Positions 1 to 58,100 of a DNA stretch of 64,000 bases are shown piece by piece. Source of the DNA: Sialis fuliginosa (Eukaryota; Arthropoda; Insecta; Megaloptera; Sialidae); NCBI GenBank assembly GCA_961205875.1, contig OY540816.1:21958701-22022700 (forward strand), written 5' to 3'. Both the position numbers and the translations under genes were made by a program. The notes beneath the pieces are model-generated. The model did not search any database, had not been told where the DNA came from, and was given only the letters and a program-made list of their open reading frames with translations. How positions within the stretch are numbered: the stretch's first letter is position 1; each line of letters starts with the position of its first letter.

Positions 1-323
1 TTATGGTATGTTTACGTACTATATACTTGAAGCAATGTCTATTAAGTAATTTCTAGGCAGTTGTTCTTAATCATGCGTTGAAATCACTCAGAGTAAAGTA
101 ACACACAGGTTTTTGCAATAACACTAGAGCATCGTAATGTTTTCTACACTGACGAAATCTTGTTTATACATTTAAAAAGAAAAACATCACATACCTGAAT
201 TTTTATATGAATATAAATAATATATCATTACGTTAAAAAATATTAAGAAATACGAAAAAAGTAAATATTTTTTTTTAGATTATTTTAGAAGATCTTACAT
301 TATCTTTAACATATCGCTTAGAT

Positions 324-6948: not shown

Positions 6949-8764
6949 GACGATTTATAAAAAAGTATACTTTTCAGTCTATAGAAGGGGAGTAAAAAAA
7001 GTCTAATGTTTTTTATAATTTTTTTTATTGAAAGTAGGTACTAATTCAGAGTTTTTGCATCGATAGTTTAGAAATTAGAGAGGAGGGGCACTCTGATAAC
7101 GACTTTGAAAACACAAAAGGTCCTAAAACATTTTTTCTGGGTCTAAGCCGCGACGATTTGGTCGTGTTATCGGTCAACGTTTCGTCACACATTGCAGTGT
7201 ACATTTTCAGGGCTCTTACATCCTGAAGCCAAGAACCATTTTTGTTATTGCTTTTTAGGATAGGATAAGTGAAAAAAATATACTATTTAGTCGATTGGAG
7301 AGGGTAAAAAAAAAATGTTTTTTCAAAAATCTCATTTATGTGTTTGGGTTATCAATTTACGTCCGTATTTCATCTTCATTGATATATAAATAAGAGTATG
7401 GGAGGGCTGTTACATACAGACAGACAGACAGACAGATGGATGGACAGAGCGAAACTATAAAAATTCCTTGGCTTCTGGGTGAAAGTCGTGTCGATTTGAT
7501 CGTGTTATCGGGTCGATAACACGACCAAATCGATGCGGCTTACACCCAGAAGCCAAGATGCATAAAGATTCCTAGTTTTCTACTGAACCCTTAAAATGAT
7601 ATTTTTGTAAAAATTATAAATTTTGTAAAAAGATTCACAGACTATTATTATTATTATTTTAAACTATCTTATGTATTATTTCAATGAGCCCTTTGAATTA
7701 TGGTAATCAGGAGTAATTTCTTCAGTAACCATCATGTAGGTATGTTAATTTCGGGATCATGCAATGGATATTGACCCACGAAAGTAATTGCCAGCCTTAT
7801 TAAATCTGTCTGGAGGTGGGCTGTTGTACGTTTTTGGAACTCACAAAGCGAAAGTGTACGAAACGTTGCATAGTTTTTATTTTGCAATATAAAAATTTTA
7901 TCTTAAAATAATATTATTAATTTTTCTATACCTATAACATTTTCTAATTAACATATTGATTTTTTTTACAACTCAAAAAATTAATAGGTATAATCGTGTA
8001 TTTTGGGTATATAGGCAGCCATTTTTTGATGGTGTTTCGAAGGGGGGAGGGTCATGATTCTAACATAGTGATTTTGGGACCGGGATCGATGAATTTTTGC
8101 CGCCATCTTGATAATTAGGGGGCATTTCGTTTTTTTTAATTTATCATATATAATAAAATTTACTATAATACCTTTTAAAGTATATACTATACAGCATTTT
8201 TCACAGTAATAAACTAAATACTGAACTATTTCTGGGGTAGAATATTAAATATTTCCTTCCCCCTCCCCTCCACTGCAACTGAATGATCTTTTTTGCTCTT
8301 CCGCCAACTTCTTTCTTCATTAAAAAATATCGATTTTTTTACTTTTCAGTGTACAAATAAAAAATATTTTTTATCTGATTATTTTACACTAGCGCACAAA
8401 CTGATCTCAGTGCGTTACATAAAGTTTCCGAAATGCCCACCCAGTATCTGTCGTAAAACACTAGATGTTATTCACGTTATAAACCCGTTCTATCGACTAT
8501 CATAACAGAAATTTATATTACTTTATCAGAAGTTGTGGGTTAGCATTTAATAAATCATCCTGTACATATAACTGTCGTCATAAATAGTCCAAGTCAGTAT
8601 ATATAAATACATACATATTAAATATGTCAATAATACATAATGGATATTTAGTTGACAATTTTACATTGTCTTTATTAATGTATTCGTTACATATCTATTT
8701 AAAATTAGTAAATAAACAATGATAACTTAAAAAATAGTCAGTTAGTTAATGTTTATTAGTGAAG
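6949..8764. other. Spacer with a dispersed repeat and a head-to-head palindrome
   Basis: 7028-7466 shares blocks with 9124-9521 (ATAGTTTAGAAATTAGAG, CACTCTGATAACGAC, TATCAATTTACGTCCGTAT, ACAGAGCGAAACTATAA). 7467-7557 is a palindrome with 44-bp arms. No gene is seen before the TMEM135-like start. Confidence 0.55.
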
Positions 8765-11700
8765 ATGTCTTTCAGTAAAGAAAAATTTGATTCAATTTTC
8801 AAAAATGCGAAATGTGAAGATCTAATTCACCCGTGGACAAAAAGCTGTTTCAAGTCGAATTTTTGCATTCTTCCAAAACTGTTGTATGGAAGTTATAGAT
8901 TTTTCGCTGATGTTTATTTGGTAAATTATTTTTATATATTTATTTTTGGAAAAATATAACTTATTTAATATTACGTTGCCAGAGGAGTCATTCGAATATT
9001 ACGTAAGTATGTTTAAGAGACTAAAAGTGTTGGGCACGCACGTGATAGGGTTCCATAGTCATTAGGATTTATAATAAAAGAGTTATTTCAAAATTTTTCA
9101 TAAACTATTTTTGTTAGTGTTCGTTATAATTTTCTTTGAAAGTACTAATTGAAAGCTACATTCTGAATTTTTTTTAGATTTTTTGAATTGATAGTTTAGA
9201 AATTAGAGGGGGGCGCTCTGATAACGACATTTAAAAACAAATAATTCGTGACTGAAGGGTTAAAATCAAAAGGTCATAAAATATTTTCTGTTGCATTCAT
9301 TTCAGTAGACCTATCTAAAGACTCAATGGAATGAATTAAAAAAAATGTGAGTTACTTTTTAGTCAAGGGTGGGTGGGGTACAAAAAAATGTGTGTTTTTT
9401 TTTTAAACTATATCATTTCTGTTTTTGGGTTATCAATCTTCGTCCGTATACCAAATGTCATCTTAATCGGTATAAAATTTATATAGACAGACGGATGGAC
9501 GGACAGAGCGAAACTATAAGCTGTTTAATTTATATTTATTTTTTCTGACAAGGTAAACAATAATATTTGTTAGTGTTAAAAAAATTATTTCATGACGAGG
9601 GGGGAAGGGTAATAGGGTAACCTCCCATTAATAATGGTTTATTATTGTATACTTTTTAGAACATTATTTATTTTAGTTGCAACTGATGTTTTACATAAGA
9701 ACTAAAGACAAAACATTTTTAATTGAACATTTTCATAATTATATAAAGTCTGGATACGGTGGATTCAAACTTGCAGTTGCTTTTTTCTCACTACTTTGTG
9801 TTTTCAGGTAATTTCAGTGAATATTTTATATATATTTACACAGTGGCGAGGCGTGAAATTTTTAAAAGGGAAGCATATTTTGTCAATCCTCCCCATCTTA
9901 TTAACAAAAAAAAACTTAGTTATGAAACAGCTTTAATTCAAGCTTTTACTTGTTTAAATAAATTCTTATATATTTATATGGTAACTAAATGATTCTATGT
10001 CTTATTTTTTTGTATTTTAGTCGATATTAGTATGACGAGTTAAAGTTCACTGCAGGAAATTTCACTAAAAAATTTAGAATTTTTGATTTCGTTAAAAGTA
10101 TGTTTATTGTATAGAAAATGACGTGAAAAGTTGTTTGTTTCAAACCGCAGGTCTGTATCTCAAACCGTTCTCGAGATATAGCCTCTCAAAGTTTTAGTTT
10201 TTTCAAATTTTTGGAGAAAAATAGCCATAACTTTTGAACGAGTGGTCGGAATTGATTTTAGTTGGCGGATTTGAAATCAGCGTGTCAAAATCTATATAAT
10301 GACATGTATAATACTTTAAAACTCGAGAAAAAAATTTTCGCGAAAAATCGAAAAAATTCAAAGGGGTATACCTTAAAAAAATGTCGATTTTTGGCCAAAA
10401 TTTTTTTGTCGGATTTTAAAGTATTATACATGTCATTATTTAGATTTTGACACGCTGATTTCAAATCCGTCAACTAAAATCAATTCCGACCACTCGTTCA
10501 AAAGTTATGGCCTTTTTTCTCCAAAAATTTGAAAAAACTAAAACTTTGAGAGGCTATATCTCGAGAACGGTTTGAGATACAGACCTGCGGTTTGAAACAA
10601 ACAACTTTTCTCGTCTTTTTCTATACAATAAACATACTTTTAACGAAATCAAAAATTCAAAAAATTTTAGTGAAATTTCCTGCAACTCGTCATACAAATA
10701 TCGACTAAAATAAGACATATAAGTATTATAGTTTTATAATTGAACGTGTTAATTAATATTAAATGCTATTTTTGATTAAAATGTTTGGGTTGCGCATAAA
10801 GTTGAATATTCTAATAATATTTTTAAATTATTTATTAACTGAAAACACAAATTTATATTAATTTACCAATAAAGAAAGGGAAGCACTGCTTCCCCTGCTT
10901 CCATGGATGCTTCGCCACTGTATTTACAACATACTGAATTGTTGATTCAGTGAGTTATTTAAAAAAAAATTGATTTTTGCAGGAATACCTATAAAGGGTA
11001 TCGCTATTATATGCCTTTTTGTGCAGCAACAGTAGGAGGTATTTTATTAAATTTTACAGAAAAATACTACAGAAGAATCTCCAATAGCAATCTTTTTCTA
11101 TACCTGGTTAGTGAAAATTTTATTAACTTCATCTAGTGACAAATTACTGAAACTCAGTGGTATAAAGCTAGGGTTTATATCTCAGCTAAATTATTTTATT
11201 AATGTAGCACTAGTGTCATCTAGTGACAATTTAGAAAATGTCAAGTTGAGTTTCAAACCGAACTCTGTTGTAATTTTAGGCTTTTGAATCAACAATCAAC
11301 TATTTAGAGGCTTCAAAAATTATCAAAAGAACTAAAATAACTGATACTTTATGTTTTATGTTGATAAATGGCTGTCTTATGTATACTATGAGACAAACAT
11401 CAGGTATAAAAGTCGATAAAAATTCAATTGGGTTATGGTACGTAAAAATATTATGCAAACATAATTAAAAATAATATTATATGTTTAATATGTTTAGGCC
11501 TTTTGTTCCTCCATGTAATAAAAATAATGAAAATGGCATTTGTAAACATAAAGGGAAATGTTCAAAGTATTGTTTGAGGGTGAGTATATTATATTTAAAT
11601 AAAGAAATTTAACAAAAAATCGATTTTTTGTGGCAGACGACTTCTGAAGCCCATAGTACATAATATTTTATTTTATTTTTAGGTAACTTATTCTTATTTT

Positions 11701-18616: not shown

Positions 18617-19118
18617 AAAAGACTTGATAGTGGTACCCAATATTTCTCAAGTATCCCCCCCCCCCTATCTTTAATTAAATTTAAAAAAAGTTATACTAAA
18701 GTAAATTTTTTTTTTTAAATAATTGTTTTTTTACAACCCCCCCCCTCTCCCCTCCCCAATGTTTAAATGCTGTGTGATACTTTTTTACCGATTGGGTACC
18801 TTTCATTTAATATATTTGCGTTTTTGGATGTATTCGATTTTTTAAAACTTGTTACAAATAAAAACTCATAAAAATATACAATTTTTACTTTTTTCAGTAG
18901 AAATAAACTATTATTTTCGAAGTTTCTTCAGTATTAGAGTATTATTTTATGTATAAGATTTTAAAAATACACCTATATTCAAGAATTCAGTTTTTTTTTG
19001 TATAATTACATATTTTTGTACTCGAATAAAACGAATAAAGATTTTAATTTTAATTTTATTGAATTGTTTTATAATGTAACCCTTTTACAAGCAAAATAAA
19101 TAACGCCATTATTATTTA
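18617..19118. other. GST 3' UTR and spacer
   Basis: Contains poly-C runs (18653-18665 and 18736-18746) and tandem AATAAA signals near 19025-19039 that may end the GST transcript. No other gene is visible. Confidence 0.5.
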
Positions 19119-20315: not shown

Positions 20316-20515
20316 CTATAAATAATAGTCGTATTTTTCGCAGGCTTTCGCGGTTGTTATTTTGACTGAATTTGATTCAGGGGTTTCTTCTGCTATGGAA
20401 AATGACGTTTCAACTAACATTTTGTAGTCTTCTTTAAAAATGAAAATTGTGTTTTTGGATTTAGTCACTTTTCCTTCTGATATTCGTTCAGAAGCCAATA
20501 CAACTAACTGTTAGT
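20316..20515 (-). pseudogene. Orphan terminal exon or gene remnant (minus strand)
   Basis: Reading the minus strand from an acceptor at 20516 (TACTAACAG, a branch-point-like string next to AG), the frame is open for 65 codons to TAG at 20316. It encodes a Lys/Glu/Ser/Thr-rich polypeptide (SERISEGKVTKSKN, IFKEDYKMLVE, EETPESNS) with protein-like composition and no recognised domain. I found no start exon with a matching donor within 600 bp upstream. It may be the last exon of a gene whose first exon is distant, or a remnant. Part of its end (ACCGCGAAAGCCT) matches an interspersed repeat tail, which weakens the case. Confidence 0.3.
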
Positions 20516-21176: not shown

Positions 21177-24100
21177 ATGGTTCCAATAGTGAGTTTTTTT
21201 ATATCGTTTTTAACTATATTTATTTTTATTTGAAATTAATGGAAGAAATGTGAATTTTTGTGCCAATTTTTACAATATTTGAATTGATTTTTAAAATCGT
21301 TTTGAGTTTATTTTTAACTATATTTATTAATGGAAGCAATGTGATTTTTTGTGTCATTTTTTACAATTTTTGAATTATATTAGTTTCAATTGTATGTTAT
21401 TTACTGATTTTTTTAAATCGATTTGAGTTTATTTAATTAATGGGAGAAATGTGAATTTCAAAGTATTTAAATTAAAGATAGTAATATTAGTTTCAATTGT
21501 GAGTTATTACGTATTTTTTTTAATAGTTTTGAGTTTATTTTATATTATGTTAGAAATGTGAAATTTTGTGGCAGATTTTATGATATTTTTAAAATAAATA
21601 TGGTAATTTTAGTTTCAATTGTGGATTTTTTTGAATTGTTTTGAGTTTGTTTTATTAATTAGTTGAAATGAATAATAGAATAAATAAATTGTTATTAAGT
21701 TAATGGAAATATGCGATTTTTTAATCAAAAGAAGAAGAAGAACAAAAGTGTGGTTCAATTTAAAAGCTTTATTTATTTTCTGTTAACAAATTAAATAATA
21801 TTTTTTACGTGTGTTATTATTAATAAAAAGTGAGAGTTTAAAATTATTGATATTACAAATATTTTAGTATGATGAAAATGTATTTAATATGTATGGAAAT
21901 AATACTAATTATGCGTGATTTTAAAAGTAATTACAGAATGTGTCATTTAATTACGTTAAGCAACAGTTTCTAAGGTCATATAAATTGTACCATGTGTTCT
22001 TAATTTTAAATACTTATATACTTACAATATGGTTTAACTATTTTTTGATTCAAGATATAAAATGATACTTATCACCTACCCCCTACCCCCCCCCCCCCCC
22101 ACAAAAAAAATTATTTATTTGTTATAAAAAAATGATTTCTTGTATATTTATATATTTTTTGAAAAAATCGAATCATTTTTACAAAAATTTCCTTTGTCTT
22201 ATTGAGAATTTAGATAGGTGCAGTTATATATAATTAAATTAATTATTGAGAATGTTCTAGTATTGAATCATTCGTAATATTCTAAAATGTGAATTGAACT
22301 TTTTAATTATATATATCAGCACATATCTACATTTAATTCCCAAGATACTGTTTCAATTAGAATAAAGAATTTATCTGAGAAATATTGCATTTTAATTTTA
22401 AATTCAACAATGCGAAAATTATATAGGTAGAAAATAATATTATTTAAAACGCCCTCTTTCATTGTTACGTCACATTTTGCGAGTGTGTGTGTGCGTCAGT
22501 CTGATCTAATAATCGTGCCAAAGATTAATTCTCAATGTCTAGTTTAAAATGAAAGTGTGCTTCTAAAATCTAAGTTTCCTATATAATCTAAATAATCTAG
22601 TACGTGTTACACAACTGAACGTTAAATGTCGCGAGGGGGGAAGCGGTAGGAGACGGGGAAAACGCACCCAAGGCGTGGTCGAGGTCCAATTGTTTTAATT
22701 TATTTATCGAAGAAAAAAATCATGAACTTTTTATTGTTGATGTTAATATTAGATTCAGAAATAACAATTGTTATACAGTAAAAGCTCTTTATTCGCGGGG
22801 TATATGTTCCATAAATATGCCGCGAATACAGAAACCGTGAATACGGAATGGTAGTTTATATGGGATTATAGGGGATACGTTCCTAGGTGACAAAATAAAT
22901 AAACAAATACAATATAAAAAAATCAATTTAATTGAAGTTTTTGACCATATTGATTAATTATTATCTTCAGGCTTAGGCAATGGTTTAAAGAATTTTGTAA
23001 TTTTTTCTTGCTTGGCAGTTTTTAAAAGCTCCTTCAATTCAGATTGATATTCAGCAGTGGCATTAGCAATTTGCCTCTTAAAAATAAGACTTCGTTCCAT
23101 AGACGGATCAATTTTCATAAAGAAATCACAAAGCTCATTTGCCATTCTTAAACCTTCACTAAGATTTTTCAAATTAAATGTCACGTTTCCTGATTAGATC
23201 CGCGAATAAAGAAATCTTTAGCCGCGAATATAGGAATTGGGTCGCATTTTTTTAATCCGCGAATAGTGAAAACGCGAATGAAGGAAGCGCGAATAAGGAG
23301 CTTTTACTGTACAGTAAAATAAGCAATAAGGGAAAAAGTGGTGTGTACCTCACCTAAATAAGCGTACGGTTGAAGTGAAACTTCTTTTGTTTTCATCAAC
23401 CATACGAATTAAATACACAAATAAAGTAAAATATTATTAAATTAATAGCCAAACGTATTAGTAGTGGCTTGTATGCCTGCGCTATTCACCATTACTCTTT
23501 TATACATTTACTCATCTCTCTCTTACGCATAACCGACGTACAGTGGCTTGTATTGTGACTTATACTATATACTATATACTATATACTTATACTATCTACT
23601 CACGCATATGCCATACTTTCCTTACTAAAAAAAAAATGTTCCTAAACAAAAAAATGGTAATCTTTTACAGGGTACTTACCAAATTATATTTTGTTGTCTA
23701 TAAATGTGTCCCAAATCAACCACTAATTAAATAAGCTTCAGAAAAAGCCCATTCCCGCATCGGAACAATTATTTTTTCCTTAATGGGCGATTAAATTATA
23801 CAATTTAAGAAAAAAATTATAATTTCGATAAGAAAAGTATAAACCTTAAATTATCTTGAAAAATACATACGTCCTACGAAAAAACTTTACTGGACCTTTT
23901 TGGAAGCTTATTTAATGAGAAATGACATGATAAGCAATTTCTTAAATACCAACGGAAATATTTCTATGGAAATTTTTGGTTTGCTTTTGTATTAATTTTA
24001 AAAATCACTCTTCCAGATATTCTTCTTGGCGATTGCCTTCACAAAGGCCCAGTACATGAACAATTACCCAACAGTCTACGGAGGGATGGAGTACAGGTAT

Positions 24101-29895: not shown

Positions 29896-31854
29896 TTACG
29901 CCTTATTGAAAGAATAGCTGAAACCATCTGGATTCCTTTGGAGGTTGAGTTTACCGGGTGGGAAGAATCTGTGTGGGGCTGGGGTAGTTTGTTGGTATTG
30001 CTGGGGTTGGGGTTGATATTGTTGTTGTTGGGGTTGGGGGGCGAAATGTTGCTGTTGTTGTGGAGCAGCGGCGTATTGTTGAGCTTGTGGGAAGTGTTGT
30101 TGTGGAGCAACTGGAGCAGCTCCAACAGAGTTATAGTTCTGTTCATACAAAGATGGGTTGTAAGATCCATCGTCGTAACGACCTTGTGCCTGGTAAGCTT
30201 GCTGAGGTTGGTGGTAAGCCTGTTGTGGCTGGTAAGCAGCTGGAGCTGGGGCAGCTGGCGCTGGTGGAGCTACTGGAAGATGATCTCCAGTTGCCCGGAA
30301 ACCGTCCTTACCGGCTGTGTAGGTGACAGTGCGTCTTTGACCGCTGGGGTCTACATAGCTGTAAGATCCTTTACGGTTTCCGTTTACGTCGCTTTCTTCT
30401 TTGAATTCAACGCCATCTTCTTGGGTGTAGGCTGAGCCGAATGTTCCGTCACCGCTGAGGTACCTCTGCTCGCTGAGGATTGCCGCCGTTTGGGGGTCTC
30501 TGTTGTAGTTGTGTTGCTGCGCTAAGCAGACTGCTACCAGTGACAAAAGAGCGACCTGGGAAAATTTACGGGTTTTGTAAAAATATTTAACTGAAGATGT
30601 AACCATGAATATTTTGTCTAAAATATTTTTTATGAAAATTCGTTATTTTGGAAATAATCCGCTGGAAAGTCTTTAAATTTTTTTTTGATCTATTGGCAAT
30701 AAGTATTAAAAAGTCAGGGGTTAGGTTTTTTTATTTCCGGTTTTTATATGAAATTTTTTTCAAGTTCGAAGGCGTGGTGATAATAAAAAATAATGCATAT
30801 GATTTTATTGACAAAAAAATAGATTTGACAATGAAGATAATATCTTTCATTGAAGGTTAACTTGTTAAAAAAGACTAACTGTATTATTTGCAATGTTATA
30901 ATTAATAATGTTATATTTTTAGAAGATTATTTTTTATGTTAGTTTATTTTATTAAATATTGCACCTAGTTTTTTCAGAGCCATTTTTTTATTAGTATTTA
31001 TAAGAGATTATCTTGTTCAACTTAATCTGTATTAGAACCCCCCCCACCCTTAAAATTACAAAAAAAATATTTCTTTTATCTTACTTAAAAACATGCATTT
31101 TTTTTGTCTTGAAGAATTAGTTCATTTTTGTTAATAAATTAACTTTAGTTAAGAAGAAAAACCCCGACTTCAAAAACTGTTAAATTTTATTATTATAAAC
31201 ATTCAAATATTTTTAGAATTAAAAGGTTTTATTTCTCAACCAATTAGTTACCCTAGAATTTCCTTTAATTTTTTTTGTTAATAGATTAAACTTAATTTTT
31301 CAAGCAAGTATTACTTGTAAATTATTAATTTAGGTAATCAAAAAATTTAAGAAAATTTTCTAATTATTATATTTTAAAAATCAAATTATTTATCCCAATC
31401 TTCCCCTAAAAAATCCTGTTAAATTTCACCAAAAAATGATAACTACCCAAACCAATCAGTTTATTAAATAATAGGTTTTCCCATTTTCACTTTTATCTAA
31501 CTTAAATTGTAAGTGAGTTAAGTTAAGTAATACAATACTAACGGTTCTATTTGTACTACCATTTTTTCTAATTATTATATTTTAAAATATCAAGTTATTT
31601 ATCCCAATCTTCCCCTAAAAAATCCTGTTAAAATAACTACTCAAACCAATTTTTTTAAATTTTAAAATATTAAGTTATTTATCCCAATCTTCCCCTATTA
31701 AATTTCACCAAAACCAATCAGTTTATTAAATAATAAGTTTTCCCATTTTCACTTTTATCTAACAAGTAACTTAAGTTAAGTAATACAATACTAACGGTAC
31801 TATTAGTACTACAAACCAGTTAAAGCAACAATAATTACTCACAATTCTGAACAT
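29896..31854 (-). CDS. RR-1 cuticular protein (Chitin_bind_4), two exons
   Basis: Exon 1 is 31854-31843 (M-F-R-I, donor GTGAGT at 31842) and exon 2 is 30555-29896 (acceptor CCCAG), phase 0; 223 residues. Signal peptide MFRIVALLSLVAVCLA, then the R&R chitin-binding domain at about residues 38-99: GDGTFGSAYTQEDGVEF, GSYSYVDPSGQRRTVTY, AGKDGFRATGDHLP. The motif is the RR-1 type of flexible cuticle. The rest is a low-complexity tail of Ala/Pro/Gln with many QQ and YQPQQ units and a final Asn/Phe/Ser segment. It is secreted by epidermis and binds chitin in the procuticle. Reading exon 2 straight through from an upstream ATG would give a false N terminus (MVTSSVKYFYK...); the spliced version restores a signal peptide. 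A polyadenylation signal is near 29812 on this strand. Confidence 0.95.
30556..31842 (-). repeat. RR-1 gene intron with internal duplications
   Basis: 31365-31800 carries two to three partial duplications of a block containing TTATTTATCCCAATCTTCCC, AAAATCCTGTTAAA and AACCAATCAGTTTATTAAAT. No exon is seen. Confidence 0.7.
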
Positions 31855-32880: not shown

Positions 32881-35770
32881 ATAGGTATAAGTCTATATTA
32901 ATTTAATAGCAAATATTATCATTTTATTTTTTAATCCAACGTTTCTTTATATGTTACAGTACACATATTTTGAAAGTATTTTAATATTATGAAACCATAC
33001 AGTTCATTAAAATTTTAATTAGTCTAAATAAATGGGTATACCTATCAGGAAATAATACATTCATTTTAAAATGTATTAAAAGAGAAAAAAAAATAATCGT
33101 ATTTTAAAATCATGCGAAATTCGCACGCTTCAACTTGTATTGCAGTAAAAATTGGAGCATTCTCTGTAATAAAAAAATTGCAGTAATGAATAATTAATTA
33201 GAATGTTTTGTACAAACACATTTAATTACATTTTATTTGGTAACTTAAGATGTCCAAGTGAAGAAATATTTATAAAGTGATTTTACTAGAGTTACACACG
33301 TGACAACTGCATCTCTGTCTCGTCCCAGTCTCGTCTCCTTTACCTGACCGAGACGAGAACAAAAAATCTCCATGTAATTTTTGAATAAAAAATGTAAATT
33401 TATAAAATATTATTATAATATTACAACTGTAAAATAGAATGCATCTTTGGTTTCTAAGAAAAAGTCACGTCTTCTTGTTTGTATACATGGGCCAAGTGTT
33501 TCTAAATAGTTTTTAAGTTGTACCTATATCCATAAAGATTTTGGAGCAAGAATATTATAAAATCATGAACTTTTTAGGAAACAAATTTTTGAATGAAGCT
33601 TCGGAATAAATTTTATAATACATACACTGCAATGTGTGACGAAACGTGGGCCAATAGAACGACTTAATCAACGCGGGGTGTACCCAGAAGACTAGAGCTA
33701 TAGAATTTTAATGTTTCCATTGCAATTTTGGATGAAATGTTGGTTATAATGATTGAATTATTTCATAGTTTACTTTGACAAATTGTAATCTCAAAGATAC
33801 ATTTATAATGTCAACATATCTTATAGAAATGCAATAAGGAAAAAATACTATCTAATTGATTTTTTTATGTTGCTTACAAATTAAATATTTAATTAGCTGC
33901 TCATATATGCCATGTCCATTAACTTATAAATAAATGTTTTACACTGTTCTTTATCAATTAAATTATTTATTTAAATTTGCTTCGATTATTAATTAGTAGT
34001 CATTAAAAAATGTAAGAATTTACATTACATCCATACTACTACTGTCTGTCTGTCTGTTTGTTACCTTTTCACGGCTAAACCGATCTTGATGAAATTTGGC
34101 AGGAAGATAGCTTACATCCTAAGGAAGGGCATAGGCTACTTTGTATCCCGAAAAATGTAATAGATAAAAAAATGTGTGTGACATTTGTTCGCAATATTAT
34201 TTATACATTTTTGGCGTAAACAGCTAGCATGCAAATGTTAAACTAAAACCTGTTTTATCGACTATCATAACAGAAATCTGTATAACCTAACTTGTATTCC
34301 ACGCAAACGAAGTAGCGGATAACGGCTAGTAGAAATACAAACTGAAATTTCAGAAAATAAAACTAATTTTAATTAATAATATAGGGCTTTTGGAAGTAGG
34401 GGTCTAAATCATACGAATATTTACAATGGGGGAAGATGGATCAAACGTTACTAACATTAACTTCCGCTTTCTTATAAATTATTATTAAATTTAGTTACAT
34501 AAGCCAATTTTGATTTAAAAATTTTTTATATAAAATTCAAAAATTATTTAAAAAAAAATAATAATAAATAAAAACAATCTTATTAATATATATATATATA
34601 GCTAATAGATGATCTAAATAAATAATATTTAATCAATTTCATGGACAATATCACGTGAAAAAAAAACGACAAAAAATATTGACAAGGTAATATTTTTGCT
34701 ATCAAAAATTCACTCATCGAATATTCTTCAAATTTGCTACAGTTTTTTTTCTTCAGACATTTATTTTTAATGTCAATGAAACTTCATCCGTTATAATTTA
34801 AAGTTTATCATATAATAATAATTACTTTATTTATTAGTAAAACTTGATTTAAAAGCATCAGCTTATATAAATATTAATGTCTTATTATTATACTTCTAAC
34901 CGGAAAGTTTCTTTAATGAAGGTTTTTGTGTACATTTTTGCCCGAGGATCTTCGACAACGACGAATTTGTTGACATTGTTGTATCTAGATCATTTACTTG
35001 TATGTAGTTATTGACGTAAATACGACTTAACAGTGGCGTAGAGAACTTTTACTTTTTAATTTTGAAAATTAATTATTTTATTGAGTTTTGCAATGTATAC
35101 AATGATTTAAATTTTAAACCAGAGGTGTCAAATATATATATGAAGACGTGCTATCAAATTCAAAGAGTTGGCAAGCCGCTACCCTACCAAAAATGGTATT
35201 TTTAAAAGTCAATTTATATTTTTTCAATGGAAAACGACAAAAATAACAACTTTTGCTTAAAATAATTTTTCAGCAAATGAACAAAATAGTTGTAGATTTT
35301 TGGATATTCATGAATTTTTTAATAGGTTTATAACCATTAAAATAAAAAGATTAAAGAATTTAAAAAAATATCTAATAAAAGTAAGAGAAATGTTTTTTAT
35401 TTTATTTTGTATTTACCTTTGCTATTTAATTTTTTTATAAAATTAGTTTTGGAAATGATTGATTCTTTTATTAACATCGAAAATACATATAAGCAGTGGC
35501 GTGTTAAGCAAAAGGCACTTTAGGTAAAGTTGGGGGGGGGGGCAGGTCCGTAACTACCAAGCATAGAGGGTTTCCGAACAAACGAAAGTGGATAGATAAA
35601 GATCCGATGGATGACTTGTTGCTCCAGGGCCCCAGAGCCTCTAGTTACAACCCTTTGGCGGGCGGAGGGGTGAAGAGTAAAAAAAATACGATCTTCAAAA
35701 AAAAATATGATAGAACATAAAAAATTTAAAACTACTATTCGATTGCCTCTGTTGCACTTTTACACGAGCC
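32881..35770. other. Intergenic, repeat remnants
   Basis: Holds a 33634-33700 fragment of the GATGTCCACTGCAATGTG repeat family, a Helitron-like tail at 34030-34333 ending GGCTAGT, and CAGTGGCG-type hAT ends near 35032 and 35495. No gene seen. Confidence 0.45.
34030..34333 (+). mobile_element. Helitron-like / CTAGT-ended repeat copy
   Basis: CTGTCTGTCTGTTTGTTACC, ACGGCTAAACCGATCTTGAT, GATGAAATTTGGCAG and CATAGGCTACTTTGTATCCC, ending AACGAAGTAGCGGATAACGG then CTAGT. Other copies: 3069-3330, 25780-26065, 29660-29752, 57420-57640. This layout resembles Lep1-type Helitron-like repeats of insects. Confidence 0.6.
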
Positions 35771-35865
35771 CTGAAGATGTCCACTGCAATGTGTGACGAA
35801 ACGTTGGTTGATTACACCCAGAAGCCAAGATCCATATCAAGATCAAGATCACCGCGGAAGCCTTA
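35771..35865 (+). repeat. CTGAAGATGTCC...GAAACG repeat family, near-complete copy
   Basis: CTGAAGAT, then a stem-loop (GTCCAC, six-base loop, GTGTGAC), GAAACGTTGG, ACACCCAGAAGCCAAGATCC and the tail ACCGCGGAAGCCT. The best inverted copy is at 43919-44042. Degenerate copies: 7141-7210, 33634-33700, 39535-39617, 44816-44893, 51919-51998 and about 60424-60480. Confidence 0.8.
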
Positions 35866-35983
35866 ATACTTGTACTATTCGATTTTTCATTCAGAAACAA
35901 AAAAAATATTTTCTAAAGAAAATTTTTTTTTAGTTCCTCCAGCACTGGCTAATAATTTCCGCATCATTTCCTGTAACTGTTCG

Positions 35984-38325: not shown

Positions 38326-39869
38326 TTAGTGTTAAATATTTTTTGAGTTATATTTTATTTAAAATTAATATACATAATGTAATTTTTGGATCATCCTAGT
38401 GCAATTGCCCTTCCCTTTTCGGTAATCCATATCTGGTGATAGTTTTGTATCGATTTACTGACTATATTAATGTCTTTTTGAATGCCAAAATGAGAGGAAA
38501 ATACATATGTTTCTTTCGTAAAGTTAGTTGTAATCATTTTTGAATAGTTCAAAGATGAATTCAACAAAGACAATCGATAGATATTGAATATTGATACATA
38601 TATATTTTATAACCTGTTACCTCAGAATAATCAGTTTTAGACTGGAACATGTCACGACAAGTACACGTAATTATAAAATTTTGATTTTAATGTTTCTAGG
38701 TGCAGGCCACGTTTGAAAACAATCGGTTAAAATATAAACTATATAATTATATATCCGTTGATGATTTTTTTACAATGTGTGCATTCTTTTTAATTGTTAT
38801 TGATTTAACACGCCTGGTAATAAATTTATTTTAACTTAATGATGTAAGGATATATATAGGTGATTATTAAGTTTCTTACTTTTGTTTTGTTTTTAGTTTT
38901 AAATTGTTAAATGAAAAATGGAACCCTTATATGATCACTTTGTTGTTGTCAGTCTGTTTTTCAAGAACGGCTAAAGGTATCAAGTTGAAATTAATATCAA
39001 ATACTAAGGTCTGTAGTCTCATAGTCCTGTAAAAAAATTAAGTTTCTAACTTAATGCAGTAAAAAGATACGGCCTTTTAAAACGTATTTTGATACTGACA
39101 GACTGATTAGATTAGATTAGATTATATAGTGATTGATGAGGAGGGTTTAATGCCTCTAACACTGCAGCCTTTGGCTTATTGTGTTCTTCATCAATTCACT
39201 CATTCAGTAAAAAGGTTTACCATTCCTATCAGGTTAAGTAGCCTTTTCACCAGATTTTCTCTTATTAGAGCTTCTCGATTATTGGCTCCTGCTTGGAGTG
39301 CATTTCTCTGACTGTCTAATTAACCAAACCTATAGGGTATTTCCCCTCGACCAAAAATCTTGAAATTTGGCACAAAGGAAGGTCTTTTAGCACAAGTAAA
39401 GGAAAAAACCCGAAAATCATTCATTTCTAAGTGGAATTATTTTACATGAAAAACTTAATTTTGTTTTTTCTACGAATAAAGACGCCTACAATTAATATTG
39501 AAGTTTTGAGGCTTCCTCGTTGATATGGATATAGATCTTGCCTTCTGGGTGTAAGCCGCGTCAGTTTGATCGTGTTATCGACGGCCAACATTTCATCACA
39601 TATTGTAGTGGACATCTTCAGGTATCTTCTAAAATAAATAAATAAAATCATCAAAATTCTATAACAGTTATAAAACTAAAAAATTATCATAAAATAAAAA
39701 ACACCGCGGAAGCCTCATTTTTAAAATCTAATAAAAATAGTATCTTCATTCAGATATAAATCATAATATATCTACTACCGACAATGAAAAAAAAAATATC
39801 GAAACGACTATAAAAAATTAATGTAAAAGTTAACAAGTAAAATATTTTAGCAACAACTATATAATCGTC
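38326..39869. other. Intergenic, repeat remnants
   Basis: 38965-39090 shares a block with 14553-14670 (AAGTTGAAATTAATA, TAGTCCTGTAAAAAAAT, AAAAAGATACGGCCTTT). A (GATTA)n stretch lies at 39106-39123. 39535-39617 is an inverted, degenerate copy of the GATGTCCACTGCAATGTG family. A GC-richer 60-codon frame at 39129-39311 has no recognisable domain. Confidence 0.5.
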
Positions 39870-39980: not shown

Positions 39981-42078
39981 ATGGATATTTTCATTCGGGT
40001 AAGTCACGATTGTTAAAAATTACATTCATATAAAATTTGTACAATGTATATAGTATATAGTATATATATTTATATATATATCTGCGATATGTATTTTTTA
40101 TTGTTTTTATATATATTCTTTTGTTTATATTGACAGTCATATTATGTTTGACCTTAGAACTTTTGTTTACAAAATTTTGACTGGTAAAATTGTAATAAAA
40201 TACATTATGTTCTTCTGTAAGCTTTCGTATAGCTGTTGTTCATAAGAGTTAACTTTTCGGGCTGTTTTCGACTGTGTCGGAGTCTTCTTCAGAAGTGTTT
40301 CTAAAACTCGAAACGTCAAGATATTCACTAATATACAAAAATTTAGATTTTATGTAATACATTAAGTTTTATATTTCTTGATCAATAATTTTTGGAAGTA
40401 GTGTCATTAGGTCAAATATGATAGTTTGTCGACTTTTAGGGGGTGAAAATTGAATGAAAATGTTTCTACTTTTCGAATTTAGGGATATTTTTCTATGTTA
40501 TTTAATGTTTTTTATGACCACATCGCGATTGACTAAACAATTATTTTGAAATTTTCAAAATTATCAGTTTTAAAAAATTTTATTTTTAGTCAAAGAATAT
40601 TAATACAGTTTTTCAGATGTTTTCGGAACAAATTTATTTTTAAAAGTGCACTTTTTTTAATTCAAACTCGAATATCTCAGCACCAAGAAAGCGTTTTAAG
40701 TTTCCTTAAAATAGCTATCTTGAAATTTGAAAAAAAAATACTTTGTTATGTGGGCCAGATCGAACAAATTTATTTAATTTTTTAAATAAAATTAAAATAA
40801 ATAAAATGTTTGCTTTGGCCGCCTCTACCGCCCCTCATATTTGTACATTATGTTTTTAAACTTCCTGTATATTGCTATACAGACCTACCAATTTTATTTT
40901 AAAAAATTGGTATAAGAAGACATTTTTTCAGTTTAAAAGTTTTAAATCAATTACATTTTCTATAATTTAAATTATATCATTGTAACATACATTAATTCTT
41001 GTTTTCACGCATACGCAACAAGAAATATCCAATGCCAAAATAATCAATACTTTCACTTACATATCTACATATCTTTTATCCTACAACACTCAAGAATTTA
41101 CGAAAAATAACACACTATTTATTATTACAGTTAACGATACTATACATTGCCGTTTTTACGGCAAGTACCTCATGCCAGGACATTCTTGAAGACTCGCGCA
41201 TTCTACCGGGAACTGACGGAAGCTTTGGGTTCCTCTACCGGACACAAGATGGCATTTCTCACGGCGCTAAATCTGCATCAGACGGAAAAGTTTCTGGGAG
41301 ATTCACTTACACTGATCCTTCTGGATTCAAAATAAATTATAACTATAATACTGCAACTGTTCCTCAAAGAAGACCAACAGCTGCTAGAAGAATTGCTGAA
41401 GATAGTAATTATAACTATGAACAAACAAGGCCAGTTTCGAGGAGATTAGGTGAAGGTAATAGTAATAACTATCAACAAGCGACACCAGTTTCGAGGAGAT
41501 ACGATGAAGGTGATAGTTATAACTATCAACAAACGACACAAGTTTCGAGGAGATTAGGTGAAGATAATAGTTATAACTATCAACAAACAACACCAGTTTC
41601 GAGGAGATTCGATGAAGGTGATAGTTATAACTATCAACAAACGACGCCAGTTTCGAGGAGATTTAATGGAGATAATGTACCTCAAAGACCTGTATCTAGA
41701 AAAATAAGTGAATTTAGTTTTGGCACAGAAAATAATTACAATTCCCCACAATCTTCTCAAGAATTAAACAACCAACGTTCAATAATCGACGATGAAGAAT
41801 TGTTTAGGGTAATGCCAAGATCTTTACTCGAAGAAGACGAAACTAAAAATACGAAGGTAATATATAGAAGACCGCTGGTTGAAGAAAATGATGGAGATGT
41901 AGTTGTTATTGCACCTAGACGAAGAACTTCACCTAGTACTAGTAGAAGAACTCAAAAACCAATTGTTGTTAATGATAGGCAATTGTTGACACTATCTTCA
42001 ACAATGGGACCAATTGTTGTCAATGAAGATTTTGCAGATGATCCCTTGTTTAAATTGTTAGCTAAGGCATATGTTTAA
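39981..42078 (+). CDS. Secreted R&R-like cuticular protein with five 18-aa repeats, two exons
   Basis: Exon 1 is 39981-39998 (M-D-I-F-I-R, donor GTAAGT) and exon 2 is 41131-42078 after TTATTACAG, phase 0; 321 residues. Signal peptide MDIFIRLTILYIAVFTASTS; mature start near CQDILED. Residues 35-80 (DGSFGFLYRTQDGISHGAKS, GRFTYTDPSGFKINYNYN) resemble the core of the R&R chitin-binding domain but are divergent. Residues about 90-185 hold five tandem repeats of exactly 54 bases each, consensus PVSRR-(L/F/Y)-x-E-G-(D/N)-SYNYQQTT; the VSRR codons begin at 41434, 41488, 41542, 41596 and 41650. The remainder is acidic and basic with paired arginines (APRRRTSPSTSRRTQK) and a tail ending AKAYV. Likely a structural extracellular matrix protein. 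A polyadenylation signal is near 42229. Confidence 0.88.
39999..41130 (+). other. Intron 1 of the repeat-bearing secreted gene
   Basis: AT-rich. It includes the overlapping head-to-head CTGAAGAAG / GAAACG motifs at 40261-40317. No further exon is recognised. Confidence 0.5.
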
Positions 42079-43615
42079 TTAAATGTTAACTATATATTTT
42101 TATTGCAGTTTTTTTGTTGTATTATAAATGCTAAATATTGAAAAGAACTGTTTTTTAATTGATTAATGGTCATTATTTTTATAAGAACCTTGTAAATATG
42201 TCGTACCTGTTTACTTTTATACTGTTACAATAAATATAGTAATTTTTTATTAATAAATTTATTAACCAAAAGTATCCGCTGTAGTGGGGGTCTTCTTATT
42301 ATTTGGGGGGGGGGATATGACATAGGCTTCAAGTCAAGATATTTATATATTTTATATGCATAAATTTTATAGCAGAAATTCTGTTTTCTTGTCTTTAAAT
42401 ATTATATTGAATTAGATATAAAAAAGATAGATAAATCGGTAAAGGATCGATTTCATTGAGCGAGTTTACAAGCTAACAAGCCAGATTATTTACAAGCTGC
42501 TTGTAAACTCGCTCAGTGTAATCATGTTCACTAGCTAACTAGCCTGGCTTGTTAGCTTGTAAACTCGCTATTTTACATAGGGCCCGAGGGGGGCCATCCA
42601 AAATCAATGGAAATGTGCTTACGAGATACTATTTTTTTCAACTGAAATTCTGTTTTCTTGTCTTAAAATGAAACATCGCTATACGAAGTATGATAACATA
42701 GGTACCTACCCGATACAAAATGTAACATAAAGTATATGTGTATATATATATATCGTTTATGCAAACAAATCACCGCACGGTATATTGTGTATGAGTGTAG
42801 TGGAGCATGGGGACTATTGGGGACGTACACTAAAGTCGCCTCCAGGCTAGAACCAAAGCCTACTGACATTTTATTTAACATTGAAAAAGCCAAATGCCAT
42901 TAATACAGGGTTGTTTTGTATGGGTGCCCTAAACGATTATACCGACCCCCTTAGGGTGATGATTTTTGTTTCAGGGGTTACCAAAATGTTGTGTTTGTGT
43001 ATCGATGTTTACACAGTTCGGCTTTAATTGATTTAAAGTTGATGATATGGTTACAATTAAAAATTTTAAAGTTTATTTTGAAATACAGGTAAGTTAATTC
43101 AATTTATTTTACTTATAGTTAAAGAATTAAAATATCTTAACAATTTTTAGGATGCAAGCTATCTTCCTGCCAAATTTCATCAATTAGTCGTCAAAAGGTT
43201 ACAAAAAAATTATAATATTAGAATAGATATACATAATTTGTTATAACTTGATATAAAAAAGTTGATATAGATAAAATAAAAAATAGTATACCCCTGGTTT
43301 CTATTGTACAATAAATTCAATAACAATGAACATTACTTAATTTCAGTAGATTATTACAGAGGGGTATTAAGTTGGATTCTTTTTAAAATTTGAATTTTTT
43401 TATTAAAAAAGTAAAAATATGAAAATTTAAAATGATTATGATAAAAATCTCGTTTAAACAAAATCAAGACCGAAAATTTTGACGGAAAGAGATCGTCGAG
43501 AATCTCCATTCTAAGGGATTTCTATATGAATTAGTATTTTAACATGATTTTGGATAAGATATAATTTTTTCAATACCTACTTATAATATTTTTTGTTTGA
43601 TTGTTTAAAATTCTT
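42079..43615. other. Intergenic spacer
   Basis: Holds a strong hairpin at 42459-42569 (listed separately) and otherwise AT-rich sequence. No gene supported. Confidence 0.4.
42459..42569. repeat. Perfect 26-bp inverted repeat with nested hairpin
   Basis: Arms 42459-42484 and 42544-42569 are exact complements over 26 bases (AGCGAGTTTACAAGCTAACA... and its complement). The 59-base spacer holds another hairpin of the same words (TTTACAAGC / GCTTGTAAA at 42489-42507). No target duplication was identified. Confidence 0.9.
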
Positions 43616-43644
43616 CTGAAGAAGATCATGAGATGATCGAAACG
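43616..43644 (+). ncRNA. Hammerhead-core-like motif, compact version
   Basis: CTGAAGAA, then stem GATCAT / loop GAG / ATGATC, then GAAACG. The six-pair stem is perfect. The order CUGANGA - stem - GAAA is that of the hammerhead catalytic core, but with one extra base before the stem. Flanking stems I and III were not demonstrated. Structure call only; activity unproven. Confidence 0.35.
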
Positions 43645-43918
43645 TCAAGTGCGAACGGGATAAATCCCAAAAATACTAAGTTTGAGCAATATGTATCGTA
43701 ACATATTAGGTGACCACAACGTTAATAAAAAAAATTATATGTTCAACTGTTGAAAAGATTTATTGATAAAAAAATAAAAGAAAAATTATCTAAAATCGTT
43801 GTTACGATGATTAACAAATAATTCAGCCATAAAAAATGTGACTTAAGGCACTAAAACAGTTAAACAAAAATATTAAAATATTTCTTTTTGTTTTAAAATT
43901 TGACTTTAGTATACACGT

Positions 43919-44042
43919 CTTGAGGCTTCCGCGGTGATCTTGATATGGATCTTGGCTTCTGGGTGTAAGCCGCCTAGGTTTGGTCGTGTTATCGGCCAAC
44001 GTTTCGTCACACATTGCAGTGGACATCTTCAGGGCTCTTCTA
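43919..44042 (-). repeat. CTGAAGATGTCC...GAAACG repeat family, complete inverted copy
   Basis: The full unit on the minus strand: CTGAAGATGTCC, GTGTGACGAAACGTTGG, CGATAACACGACC, GGCTTACACCCAGAAGCC, AAGATCACCGCGGAAGCCTC. It is the best complete copy in the window. Confidence 0.85.
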
Positions 44043-55100: not shown

Positions 55101-58100
55101 TTAAAACTCACCATCTTTATTCATGCCGGCCTCTTGGCATTTAGTAAGTCTGCACGCCCTGCACTGGTTCCTATGGGTTTTATCCACGACACACGTTCCT
55201 TCTGCCTTTGCCTTGCAGACATACTGTCTATTCCTGCGGATAGAGCGCTTGAAAAATCCAGCGCAGCCGTCGCATGCGAATATGCCGTAGTGTTTGCCGG
55301 ACGAATGATCGCGGCAAACTGCACATGGAACGTCGTACAGAATACGGCCTAAAGAAAACACAAAATATTACTAAAACCAAGACGAAACTTTTAAAAAACT
55401 TATTCTATACCCACCTAATTATGTGTAATATATTTATTAATTATTATATTATCATAGCATCTGTTTTACATTGTTTCAAATTTTGGGATTCTTTATTTTA
55501 TAACTTTTGTGTCATAACAAAACTGTATACCTTACTTTTAAAGCAGCCAAGATTATATGGCTAAATAATTATCAATTAATTTCATCAAATCTTTTTCATA
55601 TTCAAATACTATTTTAATGTTCGTAGATCCTTAAAAAAATATTCTAAGTGTATTTACTTAAAATGCCATCTCCCTATTATTCTTTCGATACTAAAAACAA
55701 AAAAGCTTACATCAAATAAAAAATACGTGTCGTGGCATAAAAAGCTCAACGGTTTAAACGGTGCAAGGGAAGCAAGAAGCGTTTAAGACCATAACTGTCG
55801 CAGTGCCTTAATAACAACAACAAGGACACGCCTACTCGGATCAAGTGGGCACAACAAAACACAGGATGTGATTGCTCTTTATATTATTGCAAGGCCCCCT
55901 TGTTCTGGGATGGTTTAAAAACTTTCAAATGACGATCGTGTTTTGTTATACATAACTGTCTATTATTCTTTAAAATGAATTTGAGTGAACTGGAAATTAG
56001 AATCGTCTTTTTATACAGTGTATTCCAAGTTGATTAAGACATAGGAATATTAACATGGGGACAATTAGAAGCGTTGTAGTAACCTTTGGTCAAATTTAAC
56101 GATGTGTGATTGGTGCATTTTGAAATGCCGCCAAAAAATTTAGTAAAATTGTCATTAGTATTTTGTTTTCAATTTTATATCTGCCAAAAAATATTATTAT
56201 AATTTTATCTAGGATGCTTACTTTAATTTCATTAATGTACTTTATTCTTTACTAAAGTTGAAAACAAAATACTGTTGATTAATTTAAAATTTATCAGTTA
56301 GTTCCGAGGCGGCATTTCAAATGCACCAATCACACATCGTTAAATTTGACCAAAGGCTACTACAACATTTCTAATTGTCCCCATGTTAAATTTCCTATGG
56401 CTTAATCAACTTGGAATACACTGTATATACATTATACATACTATATTATTACATACTTTTTTAATCTTATAAAACAGTAAAATTTCCGATACGACTTCAA
56501 TCAAAAAAAAAAAAAAAATTCTAACACCAAAACCAAACATTCAAATAAATATTAATCATCATATCACAATAATGCAAGTGTGCTTTTGATTCATTTAAAA
56601 CTGCGTCCCGTTTAGCCTACCGTAATTATTACTAACCCTCTCACCCTATTGCGAGGGTGTGTGAGTGTATCGCTTCCGGTCTGAGTACAGCACCACGTGA
56701 CCCGTCGGCTGTCATGGCCCGCTAGACCAAATATATTGACAACCGTTTTAGATATGTTGATCATGGTCAGTATTTTTTTGGCCGACTGTAGAATCGTCAT
56801 GTAAATGAGTGTATTAACGATGTGCATTTAAATTGCAGTAAATTATTAGTCTTGTTAACAATTATGTGTACAGTAAAAGCTCTTTATTCGCGGGGTATAC
56901 GTTCCATAAATATGCCGCGAATACAGAAACCGTGAATACGGAATGGTAATTTTATATGGGATTATAGGAGATACGTTCCTAGGTGACAAAATAAATAAAC
57001 AAATACAATATAAAAAAGTCAATTTAATTGAAGTTTTTGACCATATTGATTAATTATTATCTTCAGGCTTAGGCAATGGTTTAAAGAATTTTGTAATTTT
57101 TTCTTGCTTGGCAGTTTTTAAAAGCTCCTTCAATTCAGACTGATATTCAGCAGTGGCATTAGCAATTTGCCTCTTAAAAATAAGACTTCGTTCCATAGAC
57201 AGATCAATTTTCATAATGAAATCACAAAGCTCATTTGCCGTTCTTAAACCTTCACTAAGATTTTTCAAATTAAATGTCACGTTTCCTGATTAGATCCGCG
57301 AATAAAGAAATCTTTAGCCGCGAATATAGGAATTGGGTCGCATTTTTTTAATCCGCGAATAGTGAAAACGCGAATGAAGGAAGCGCGAATAAGGAGCTTT
57401 TACTGTATTAAATAATTTATACATATGTTTGTTTGTAACCGACCTTGATGAAATTTGGCAGATAGCTTGCATCCTGAGGAAAGACATCTCGAAAATGTAT
57501 TAGATAAAAAAATTATCTTATATAATATTTTGGCGTCGACATCTAGCGTGCAAATGCGAAACTAAAAACCTGTTTATCGACTATCATAACAGAAATCTGT
57601 TTTACCTAACCTGTATTCTACGAGGATAATACATATATTTTACATTGATTTAAAGATATCAGTTTGTTTATTTTTTGCTAATCCTTGACTAGACTTATAA
57701 ATGAAAATTGAATATTAAAATTTTAGACGGTCCAAACTCGATTTTGTTTCATTGAAATTCGAGTGGTATCGTCCCGGTTTCGTCACATCCAAATTTAAAC
57801 CAATTTCGTCTTGAGAGGGAAAAGCCGTGTTATTTTTTCCAAGCAGAAGCTAATTTTCTTTATAAAACTTAAACATTAATCTATGTTTTTTAAATCAAAT
57901 ATATTTTTTTAATTCTGGGTAAAAGTGACGTCTTATTAGTTGTATTTATCGACATAATATGACCAAATAGCATCCAAAAAAGTTATTAATGTTTCTAAAT
58001 TTAAATTAAAACGGCTTAATATTTAAAAAAAATAATTTCATTCCAAACATTTTTTTAAATATCACCATTTTAATGACAAATGTATTCCCATAAATTAAAT

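Follow-up and report, generated by a model that had tools for sequence, protein, structure and literature searches.

A hammerhead-like motif of Penelope-like retrotransposons in a 64-kb stretch of Sialis fuliginosa DNA

A 64,000-nt stretch of Sialis fuliginosa DNA (C8:21958701-22022700, hereafter the window) raises the question of what a short motif represents, in which CTGAAGA, one extra base, a hairpin and GAAAC follow each other at several places with differently spelled hairpins. The original prediction, made from the letters of the window, compared this motif with the core of the hammerhead ribozyme and with the hammerheads known from Penelope-like elements (PLEs), and named a variant, a dead derivative or a different structured element as the possible outcomes. 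The analysis described here, which extended the search to 392 Mb of genome, indicates that the motif is very probably the minimal type I hammerhead-ribozyme element of Penelope-like retrotransposons. Elements of this type are not new, having been published as a class (PMC6155905, PMC7761336, PMC11167929; statements attributed to papers here and below reflect the available parts of their texts).

Recurrence and pairing of the motif

Three exact matches to the motif pattern are found in the window, compared with a mean of 0.04 in 100 shuffles, none of which gave three. The sequence CTGAAGAAGATCATGAGATGATCGAAAC lies at 43616-43643 on the plus strand, and CTGAAGATGTCCACTGCAATGTGTGACGAAAC occurs twice, at 35771-35802 on the plus strand and at 44001-44032 on the minus strand. 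The last of these is the motif proper within the longer span 43919-44042 to which it had been assigned, a span that also covers most of the tail of the element. Another instance had been placed at 40261-40292 on the minus strand. It is present, but it reads GAAAAC instead of GAAAC, reaches an E of only 0.21 with the covariance model described below, and looks like a truncated, damaged copy of family B (CTGAAGAAGACTCCGACATGAGAGTCGAAACGTC).

Genome-wide, the pattern CTGAAGA-N...-CGAAAC was matched 2,949 times whereas its reversed form was matched 57 times, which confirms that the motif is recurrent. Other patterns gave 659 matches and 0 for the reversed pattern (CTGAAGAAG...CGAAACGTH), 192 and 0 (CTGAAGATGV...CGAAACGTH), and 1,464 and 28 (CTGANGAG...CGAAAC). 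About the first 100 matches to each pattern were listed, and the sorting into families was done by eye from these; nearly all of the 100 listed for CTGANGAG...CGAAAC belong to the family CTGATGAGGACTTCTTGTGAAGTCGAAAC. The families share a layout of CTGA[A/T]GA, one extra base, stem II, GAAACGTH and a stem I strand, and among the matches listed stem II sorts the copies into many of them, with GACTC/GAGTC, GACCA/TGGTC, GTCTTA/TAAGAC, GGGG/CCCC, GCTGC/GCAGC, GATCA/TGATC and GACTTC/GAAGTC as examples. The contexts that had been taken as sequence-unrelated are instead different PLE families of one genome. Stem words that differ and still pair, also part of the original prediction, are found between these families; within one family the variants among the matches listed are mostly single point changes without compensation (judged by eye), as expected of decaying copies.

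For the analysis of pairing 36 further copies were fetched, and one representative per label was picked by eye for diversity. The resulting 25 labels overcount the families, since E2 and G2 have an identical stem II and E, G, H2 and U are related. The core CUGANGA ... GAAA is present in all 25 representatives because the search patterns set it, so that the real test of the core is the genome count compared with the reversed pattern; the first pair of stem II, likewise set by the patterns, was excluded from the pairing counts. When one extra base is allowed before stem II, 78 of 100 cells at its pairs 2-5 are paired, whereas stem II placed directly after CUGANGA, as in the canonical hammerhead of the Rfam models, gives 49 of 100; shuffled sequences averaged 42, and not one of 2,000 shuffles came up to 78. 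Pair 2 is formed in 25/25 representatives by four different pairs (T-A in 9, A-T in 9, G-C in 5 and C-G in 2). The extra base itself, which had been noticed in the window, is present in every representative (A in 15, T in 9 and G in 1).

Stem I, read directly after GAAACGTH, is paired in 70 of 92 cells over 23 representatives, a value that none of 2,000 shuffles matched, and at seven alternative offsets only 30-42 of the 92 cells are paired. In an alignment of 16 representatives (D, G2, G3, G4, L, M, N, Q and T are omitted from it), 85.9% of cells are paired compared with 54.9% after shuffling, and both sides of a pair have changed in 42 cells compared with 14.8 in shuffles. The covariation score of this alignment is 0.801, compared with 0.196 when shuffled and at most 0.223 when slid; relatedness between families inflates the covariation figures, and the slide control retains that relatedness. 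Of 500 shuffles, 99 did at least as well as the alignment in pairs changed on both sides and 61 in further pair types. The presence of many families in one genome supplies covariation that is unavailable from a single element. As a control, the strict pattern was run on viral contigs and gave at least 120 stretches; of the 80 examined, 76 form at most two of the four stem II pairs, the other 4 form three and none forms all four. These viral matches look like chance.

Hammerhead layout and attachment to Penelope-like elements

In sequence, the motif follows the plan of a type I hammerhead lacking helix III: stem I - CUGANGA - (one base) - stem II - GAAA - CGU H - stem I. Once transcribed, the core CUGA[A/U]GA, the extra base, stem II, GAAA and stem I would fold into a hammerhead lacking a stem III of its own, with predicted cleavage after the H of GAAACGUH. 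The base following GAAACGT is G in only 12 genomic copies of CTGAAGAWG...CGAAACGT, a rarity that is predicted by a hammerhead, whose cleavage site is A, C or U. In 172 copies another base takes the place of the G of ACGT; ACAT and ACTT variants of families that also occur with ACGT make up most of the 100 listed.

The stems outside the hairpin, for which a covariance model had been proposed as a check, gave a divided answer: stem I is present and covaries, but stem III within a single molecule is absent and a self-complementary stretch stands in its place. This stretch is ACGT in 23 of 25 representatives (for many of them imposed by the pattern), ACACGTGT in family L and AATT in family T. Such a palindrome has no loop and cannot fold on itself, but two copies can pair; stem III would then arise only by joining the self-complementary ACGU after GAA of one molecule to that of another, and the product would be a double hammerhead. 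On sequence grounds the stretch fits the published dimer model, in which PLE hammerheads may cleave as dimers (PMC6155905, PMC7761336, PMC6466107), and a palindromic stem III is also described for repeat-type hammerheads with Aedes as the example (PMC3088659, supplement legend). Family L, with the form CTGATGAG-GACTTC..GAAGTC-GAAACACGTGTC (e.g. L096), has an 8-base palindrome replacing stem III; it accounts for most of the 100 listed matches to CTGANGAG...CGAAAC and appears to be among the commoner families of the genome.

The link to PLEs comes from the coding sequence next to the motif. A GIY-YIG search gave two loci above the cut-off, one of which, L033, encodes a PLE-type reverse transcriptase (RT; RVT_1 E 1.1e-10) together with a GIY-YIG domain (E 1.9e-6), and CTGAAGAAGTCTGTAGTATGACGAAACGTA lies ~590 nt downstream of this element on the same strand. 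The L033 RT matches 150 scored loci of 460 candidates in the genome, and many of these have frames of ~896 amino acids in tandem arrays with a ~3.56-kb period. Proteins of these tandem PLEs are 50-54% identical to L033 over the RT and, in the one compared, 44% identical over the endonuclease. A weaker form of the motif, CTGATGA-A-GACA..TGTT-GAAA, stands before the frame in the tandem PLEs L067 and L065 (E 0.21), and a good copy was not found in the tandem PLE L066. Three longer family A copies (L068, L069 and L070), picked for arms 1.3-2.3 kb apart, each have two head-to-head arms, and their frames with GIY-YIG-like sequence stop ~40 nt before the motif. Coding pieces of family A match a tandem PLE protein with 27% (E 1e-17) and 26% (E 1e-21) identity; the assignment of these pieces and of five tandem-PLE frames is based on their resemblance to one another and to L033. 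In family A a frame begins at the ATG in CTGAAGATG and continues through the tail (MSTAMCDETLADNTTKP), and the predicted cut falls 26 nt past the ATG codon; the Anolis PLE is laid out in the same way (PMC11167929). Attachment of the motif to PLE genes with RT and GIY-YIG sequence is shown only for the families seen in L033, L068-L070 and, in its degenerate form, L067. The motif lies just 3' of the frame of the element; in family A it also covers the ATG of the next frame, and it may act in the processing of tandem PLE transcripts. Covarying stems I and II and this coding attachment together support the earlier suggestion of a hammerhead-like motif of PLEs.

The tandem PLEs have some further features. 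In L067 the weaker form reads CTGATGA-A-GACA AAAA TGTT-GAAA-ATT at 3786-3812 (-) and 223-249 (-), with AATT where others have ACGT, which is possibly a compensating change of an intermolecular stem III; the drawn dimer is not favoured by energy. Arrays at C10:984974-1019576, C7:62187-89781, C3:36752257-36771949 and elsewhere diverge from their centre, with minus and then plus copies, and several arrays lie within ~105 kb of a contig end. Neighbouring tandem PLEs less than 8 kb apart, in part of the loci list, are oriented -+ in 27 cases, -- in 25, ++ in 19 and +- in 5.

Several results weigh against the reading as a PLE hammerhead. There is no good stem I in representatives D, H and Q. By nearest-neighbour energies of drawn structures, the dimer is favoured over two monomers in only 11 of 25 representatives, by 12.7 kcal/mol in L and by 0.5-3.1 kcal/mol in A, D, I, J, J2, K, K2, N, O and Q, and it is energetically worse in 14, including B, C, F and T. 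In several representatives, minimum-energy folding of the motif by itself predicts a structure other than the hammerhead. Rfam gave no hammerhead match at E up to 10 in the window, in L033, in L065-L067 or in 19 copy-bearing loci, and likewise none at gathering thresholds. With Pfam, neither RVT_1 nor GIY-YIG was found in the five tandem-PLE frames scanned, and the family A pieces gave a sub-threshold RVT_1 (E 0.0029, L069) and nothing in the endonuclease piece of L068. In Anolis, mutation of the PLE hammerhead was without effect on insertion in vitro, the hammerhead stayed uncleaved without protein, and no RNA-seq reads are reported to end at the cut site (PMC11167929).

The Anolis results, an inactive hammerhead without protein and mutants that insert normally, favour a reading in which the structure is kept for binding by the PLE protein or its endonuclease, either in RNA (template recognition or the start of reverse transcription) or in DNA, with ribozyme activity incidental or lost. 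The requirement of the Anolis template RNA for the first 172 nt of the reading frame points the same way (PMC11167929). However, the catalytic core is kept letter by letter (CUGANGA, GAAA, and rarely G after GAAACGU), which goes beyond what a mere hairpin would need, and the shortest active 5' truncation, at +20 from the start codon, deletes the first half of the core (PMC11167929). We regard conservation for protein binding as possible, if doubtful.

Insertion architecture and the copies in the window

The motif copies also document how PLEs insert. Among the 100 places listed for CTGAAGAAG...CGAAACGTH, all 16 motif neighbours within 1 kb are arranged minus then plus with their tails outward. 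A direct repeat of at least 8 bp flanks 22 of 31 head-to-head pairs (median 11), compared with 3.8% of 930 mismatched flank controls (median 5), so that a head-to-head pair is most simply one insertion. A single-armed family A insertion between 12-bp direct repeats is present in the window itself, at 35733-35884. The 31 scored pairs are 9 from L001-L030, 3 longer copies and 19 of 20 further regions, with tail consensus strings and short end points defined by eye. One arm is long-tailed in all 31; its partner is short in 25 pairs and of another kind in 6 (L004, L015, L112, L113, L122 and L123, which by eye include chance alignment extensions and internal deletions), and long-long or short-short pairs number 0/31. 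The long-tail call in L117 is probably spurious, and the long tail of L023 is itself shortened. Three extra pairs of families E, I and J (L114; L088/L089; L085/L086) have one long and one short tail by eye. The long and short end points are ~30 nt apart. L013 is a family A insertion, flanked by AAAAAAATTG, whose left arm lacks the core and which was left unscored; its right tail stops between the two end points, ~7 nt past the short one, and this copy may be an exception to the one-long-one-short rule.

Arms are more alike within a pair than between pairs, with identities of 0.932 and 0.916, respectively, in family A (with L124 and L125 counted twice), 0.969 and 0.953 in B, 0.859 and 0.711 in C, and 0.967 and 0.909 in L. 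This suggests that one template is used per insertion, and it is compatible with both self-priming and two-site priming and does not separate them. A strict one-long-one-short rule was not found stated in a limited literature search that did not take in the older Penelope papers. As a tentative model, a single dimeric complex would carry out each two-armed PLE insertion, initiating reverse transcription at two different fixed sites ~30 nt apart. One site would serve each end of a staggered break, which would leave a long tail on exactly one end, and pairing of the palindromic stem III of two hammerheads in the RNA might nucleate the dimer. If this is true, the tail pairs are a genomic read-out of the PLE insertion complex. 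If the tail rule is general, it is a testable constraint on the priming of reverse transcription in PLEs, which in vitro work has left open, and it is the part of this study most worth following.

Three other explanations were weighed. Non-autonomous retrozymes, tandem type I hammerhead repeats moving as circular RNA, would suit the shortness of many copies and the co-occurrence of retrozymes with PLEs that has been described (PMC7761336). This reading is very unlikely, as the copies are mostly head-to-head or single units and not tandem repeats of 150-300 bp, they have no helix III although the hammerheads of invertebrate retrozymes are mostly said to have one, and the longest of them bear PLE-like genes. 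The exception in arrangement is L020:1500-2470, a small tandem array of six family A cores in the same orientation at a spacing of ~187 nt. Still less probable is conservation through shared ancestry of coding sequence at the start of the PLE frame with no RNA structure involved; the ATG in CTGAAGATG does open the family A frame, but its T is replaced by A in 15 of 25 representatives and by G in family L while the core and the stems are retained, and the covariation is far above both controls, though family relatedness inflates the numbers. Least credible of all is a DNA transposon or miniature inverted-repeat transposable element that has the pairs as its terminal inverted repeats and the motif as a transposase-binding end, since the inverted pairs with outward tails and flank repeats that would suit it are accompanied by arms cut at variable mid-points, tail lengths unequal between arms, a single-armed copy between direct repeats (35733-35884) and RT- and GIY-YIG-like coding sequence in the longer copies. 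The DNA-transposon and retrozyme readings were accordingly dropped, given the variable arms and tails, the PLE-like genes and units that are not in tandem.

The window copies were scored with a covariance model built from the 16-row alignment, in which the copy at 43610 is one of the rows. Ten window matches were listed at E up to 1, and six of these have an E below 0.001. The family F motif at 43610..43652 (+; 45.3 bits, E 1.4e-9, for a copy that is among the 16 model rows) has stem I CTT/AAG, core CTGAAGA, an extra A, stem II GATCAT/ATGATC and GAAACGTC; its tail at 43647..43690 (+; right end approximate) resembles the short tail of family C in a by-eye comparison. The family A motif at 35765..35811 (+; E 2.9e-9) has stem I GCC/GGT, an extra T, stem II GTC-CAC/GTG-T-GAC and GAAACGTT, and includes the ATG that opens the tail reading frame; its long tail extends over 35806..35875 (+) as far as CTTGTAC. 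By direct reading, the 12-bp repeat TACTATTCGATT stands to its left at 35733..35744 (+) and to its right at 35873..35884 (+), where the first bases overlap the end of the tail, and these repeats are likely the target duplication of this single-armed insertion. A second family A motif lies on the minus strand at 43992..44038 (47.4 bits, E 3.9e-10), with its long tail running outward on that strand over 43912..43997.

Decayed motifs, all on the minus strand, are found at 7170..7216 (family A, CTGAAAATGTACACTGCAATGTGTGACGAAACGTT, E 3.9e-5), 39581..39627 (family A, E 6e-4) and 20398..20443 (family C-like by eye, with the core CTGA lost, E 6.1e-4). The damaged family B copy at 40250..40323, on both strands, is probably a head-to-head pair made of a minus arm at 40250-40298 and an overlapping plus arm at 40281-40323 (E 0.21 and 0.024). 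Two more weak matches to the model lie at 18900-18937 (-; E 0.053) and 30585-30624 (+; E 0.067). By eye, the frame list of the window holds no PLE-like reading frame of at least 110 amino acids, and the window copies appear to be truncated insertions retaining the motif and the tail, so that the earlier alternative of a dead derivative fits these individual copies as well.

Other features of the window include an inverted repeat at 10051-10684, with 314-nt arms that are 94% complementary and 6 nt between them, and a repeat starting TACAGTAAAAGCTCTTTATTCGCGG that occurs in two 98% identical copies ~34 kb apart (22774-23154 and 56869-57250). Among the frames, assigned by reading their translations, are cuticle-protein-like and nuclear-receptor-like ones; a repeat of four copies with 54-nt spacing (41364-41676) lies within the cuticle-protein-like frame at 41044-42078.

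Comparison with known systems

Minimal PLE hammerheads were reportedly described by Cervera and de la Pena in 2014 and by Lunse, Weinberg and Breaker in 2017, and the former are said to have found them without helix III and possibly cleaving as dimers. The motif described here agrees with the published minimal type I PLE hammerheads in its location at the PLE end, its CUGANGA - stem II - GAAA core with stem I, its lack of helix III, its thousands of dispersed copies and a stem III that would form only in a dimer. Published PLE hammerheads are minimal, lack helix III and occur in thousands per genome in many metazoans (PMC6155905, PMC7761336). The motif differs from them, the published form being compared by description only, in the extra base between A9 and stem II in 25/25 representatives. 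This identification accounts for thousands of repeats in the genome, which become the ends of PLEs, and it shows that a ribozyme of this kind can escape a standard search against RNA families.

A parallel for the ends of the elements is the Poseidon PLE of Anolis carolinensis (PAc), where the reading frame also starts at stem II, two start sites of reverse transcription bound the tail, and both DNA strands are cut and extended (PMC11167929). PAc showed no strand difference in the start of reverse transcription in vitro (PMC11167929), whereas here there is one long tail per scored two-armed insertion. The Penelope families of Adineta vaga have head-to-head inverted pseudo-long terminal repeats (pLTRs), short target duplications and, on one inverted pLTR, a 31-bp tail; self-priming was offered as the explanation of the inverted and head-to-head structures (PMC3846280). 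That paper calls the tail optional, and the word hammerhead is absent from its available text (PMC3846280); here one long tail is present in 31/31 scored pairs, one of the long calls being doubtful.

In the double hammerheads of viroids and newts, as in the dimer considered here, a weak or missing stem III is reinforced by pairing two hammerheads (PMC6155905, PMC6466107, PMC7761336, PMC3088659). Those examples are not in PLEs, and the viroid one has a very short stem III of its own. De la Pena and Flores reportedly described in 2001 a viroid hammerhead whose core holds one additional nucleotide, located between A9 and stem II. This hammerhead likewise tolerates one added core base, which in Sialis fuliginosa is common to all sampled families.
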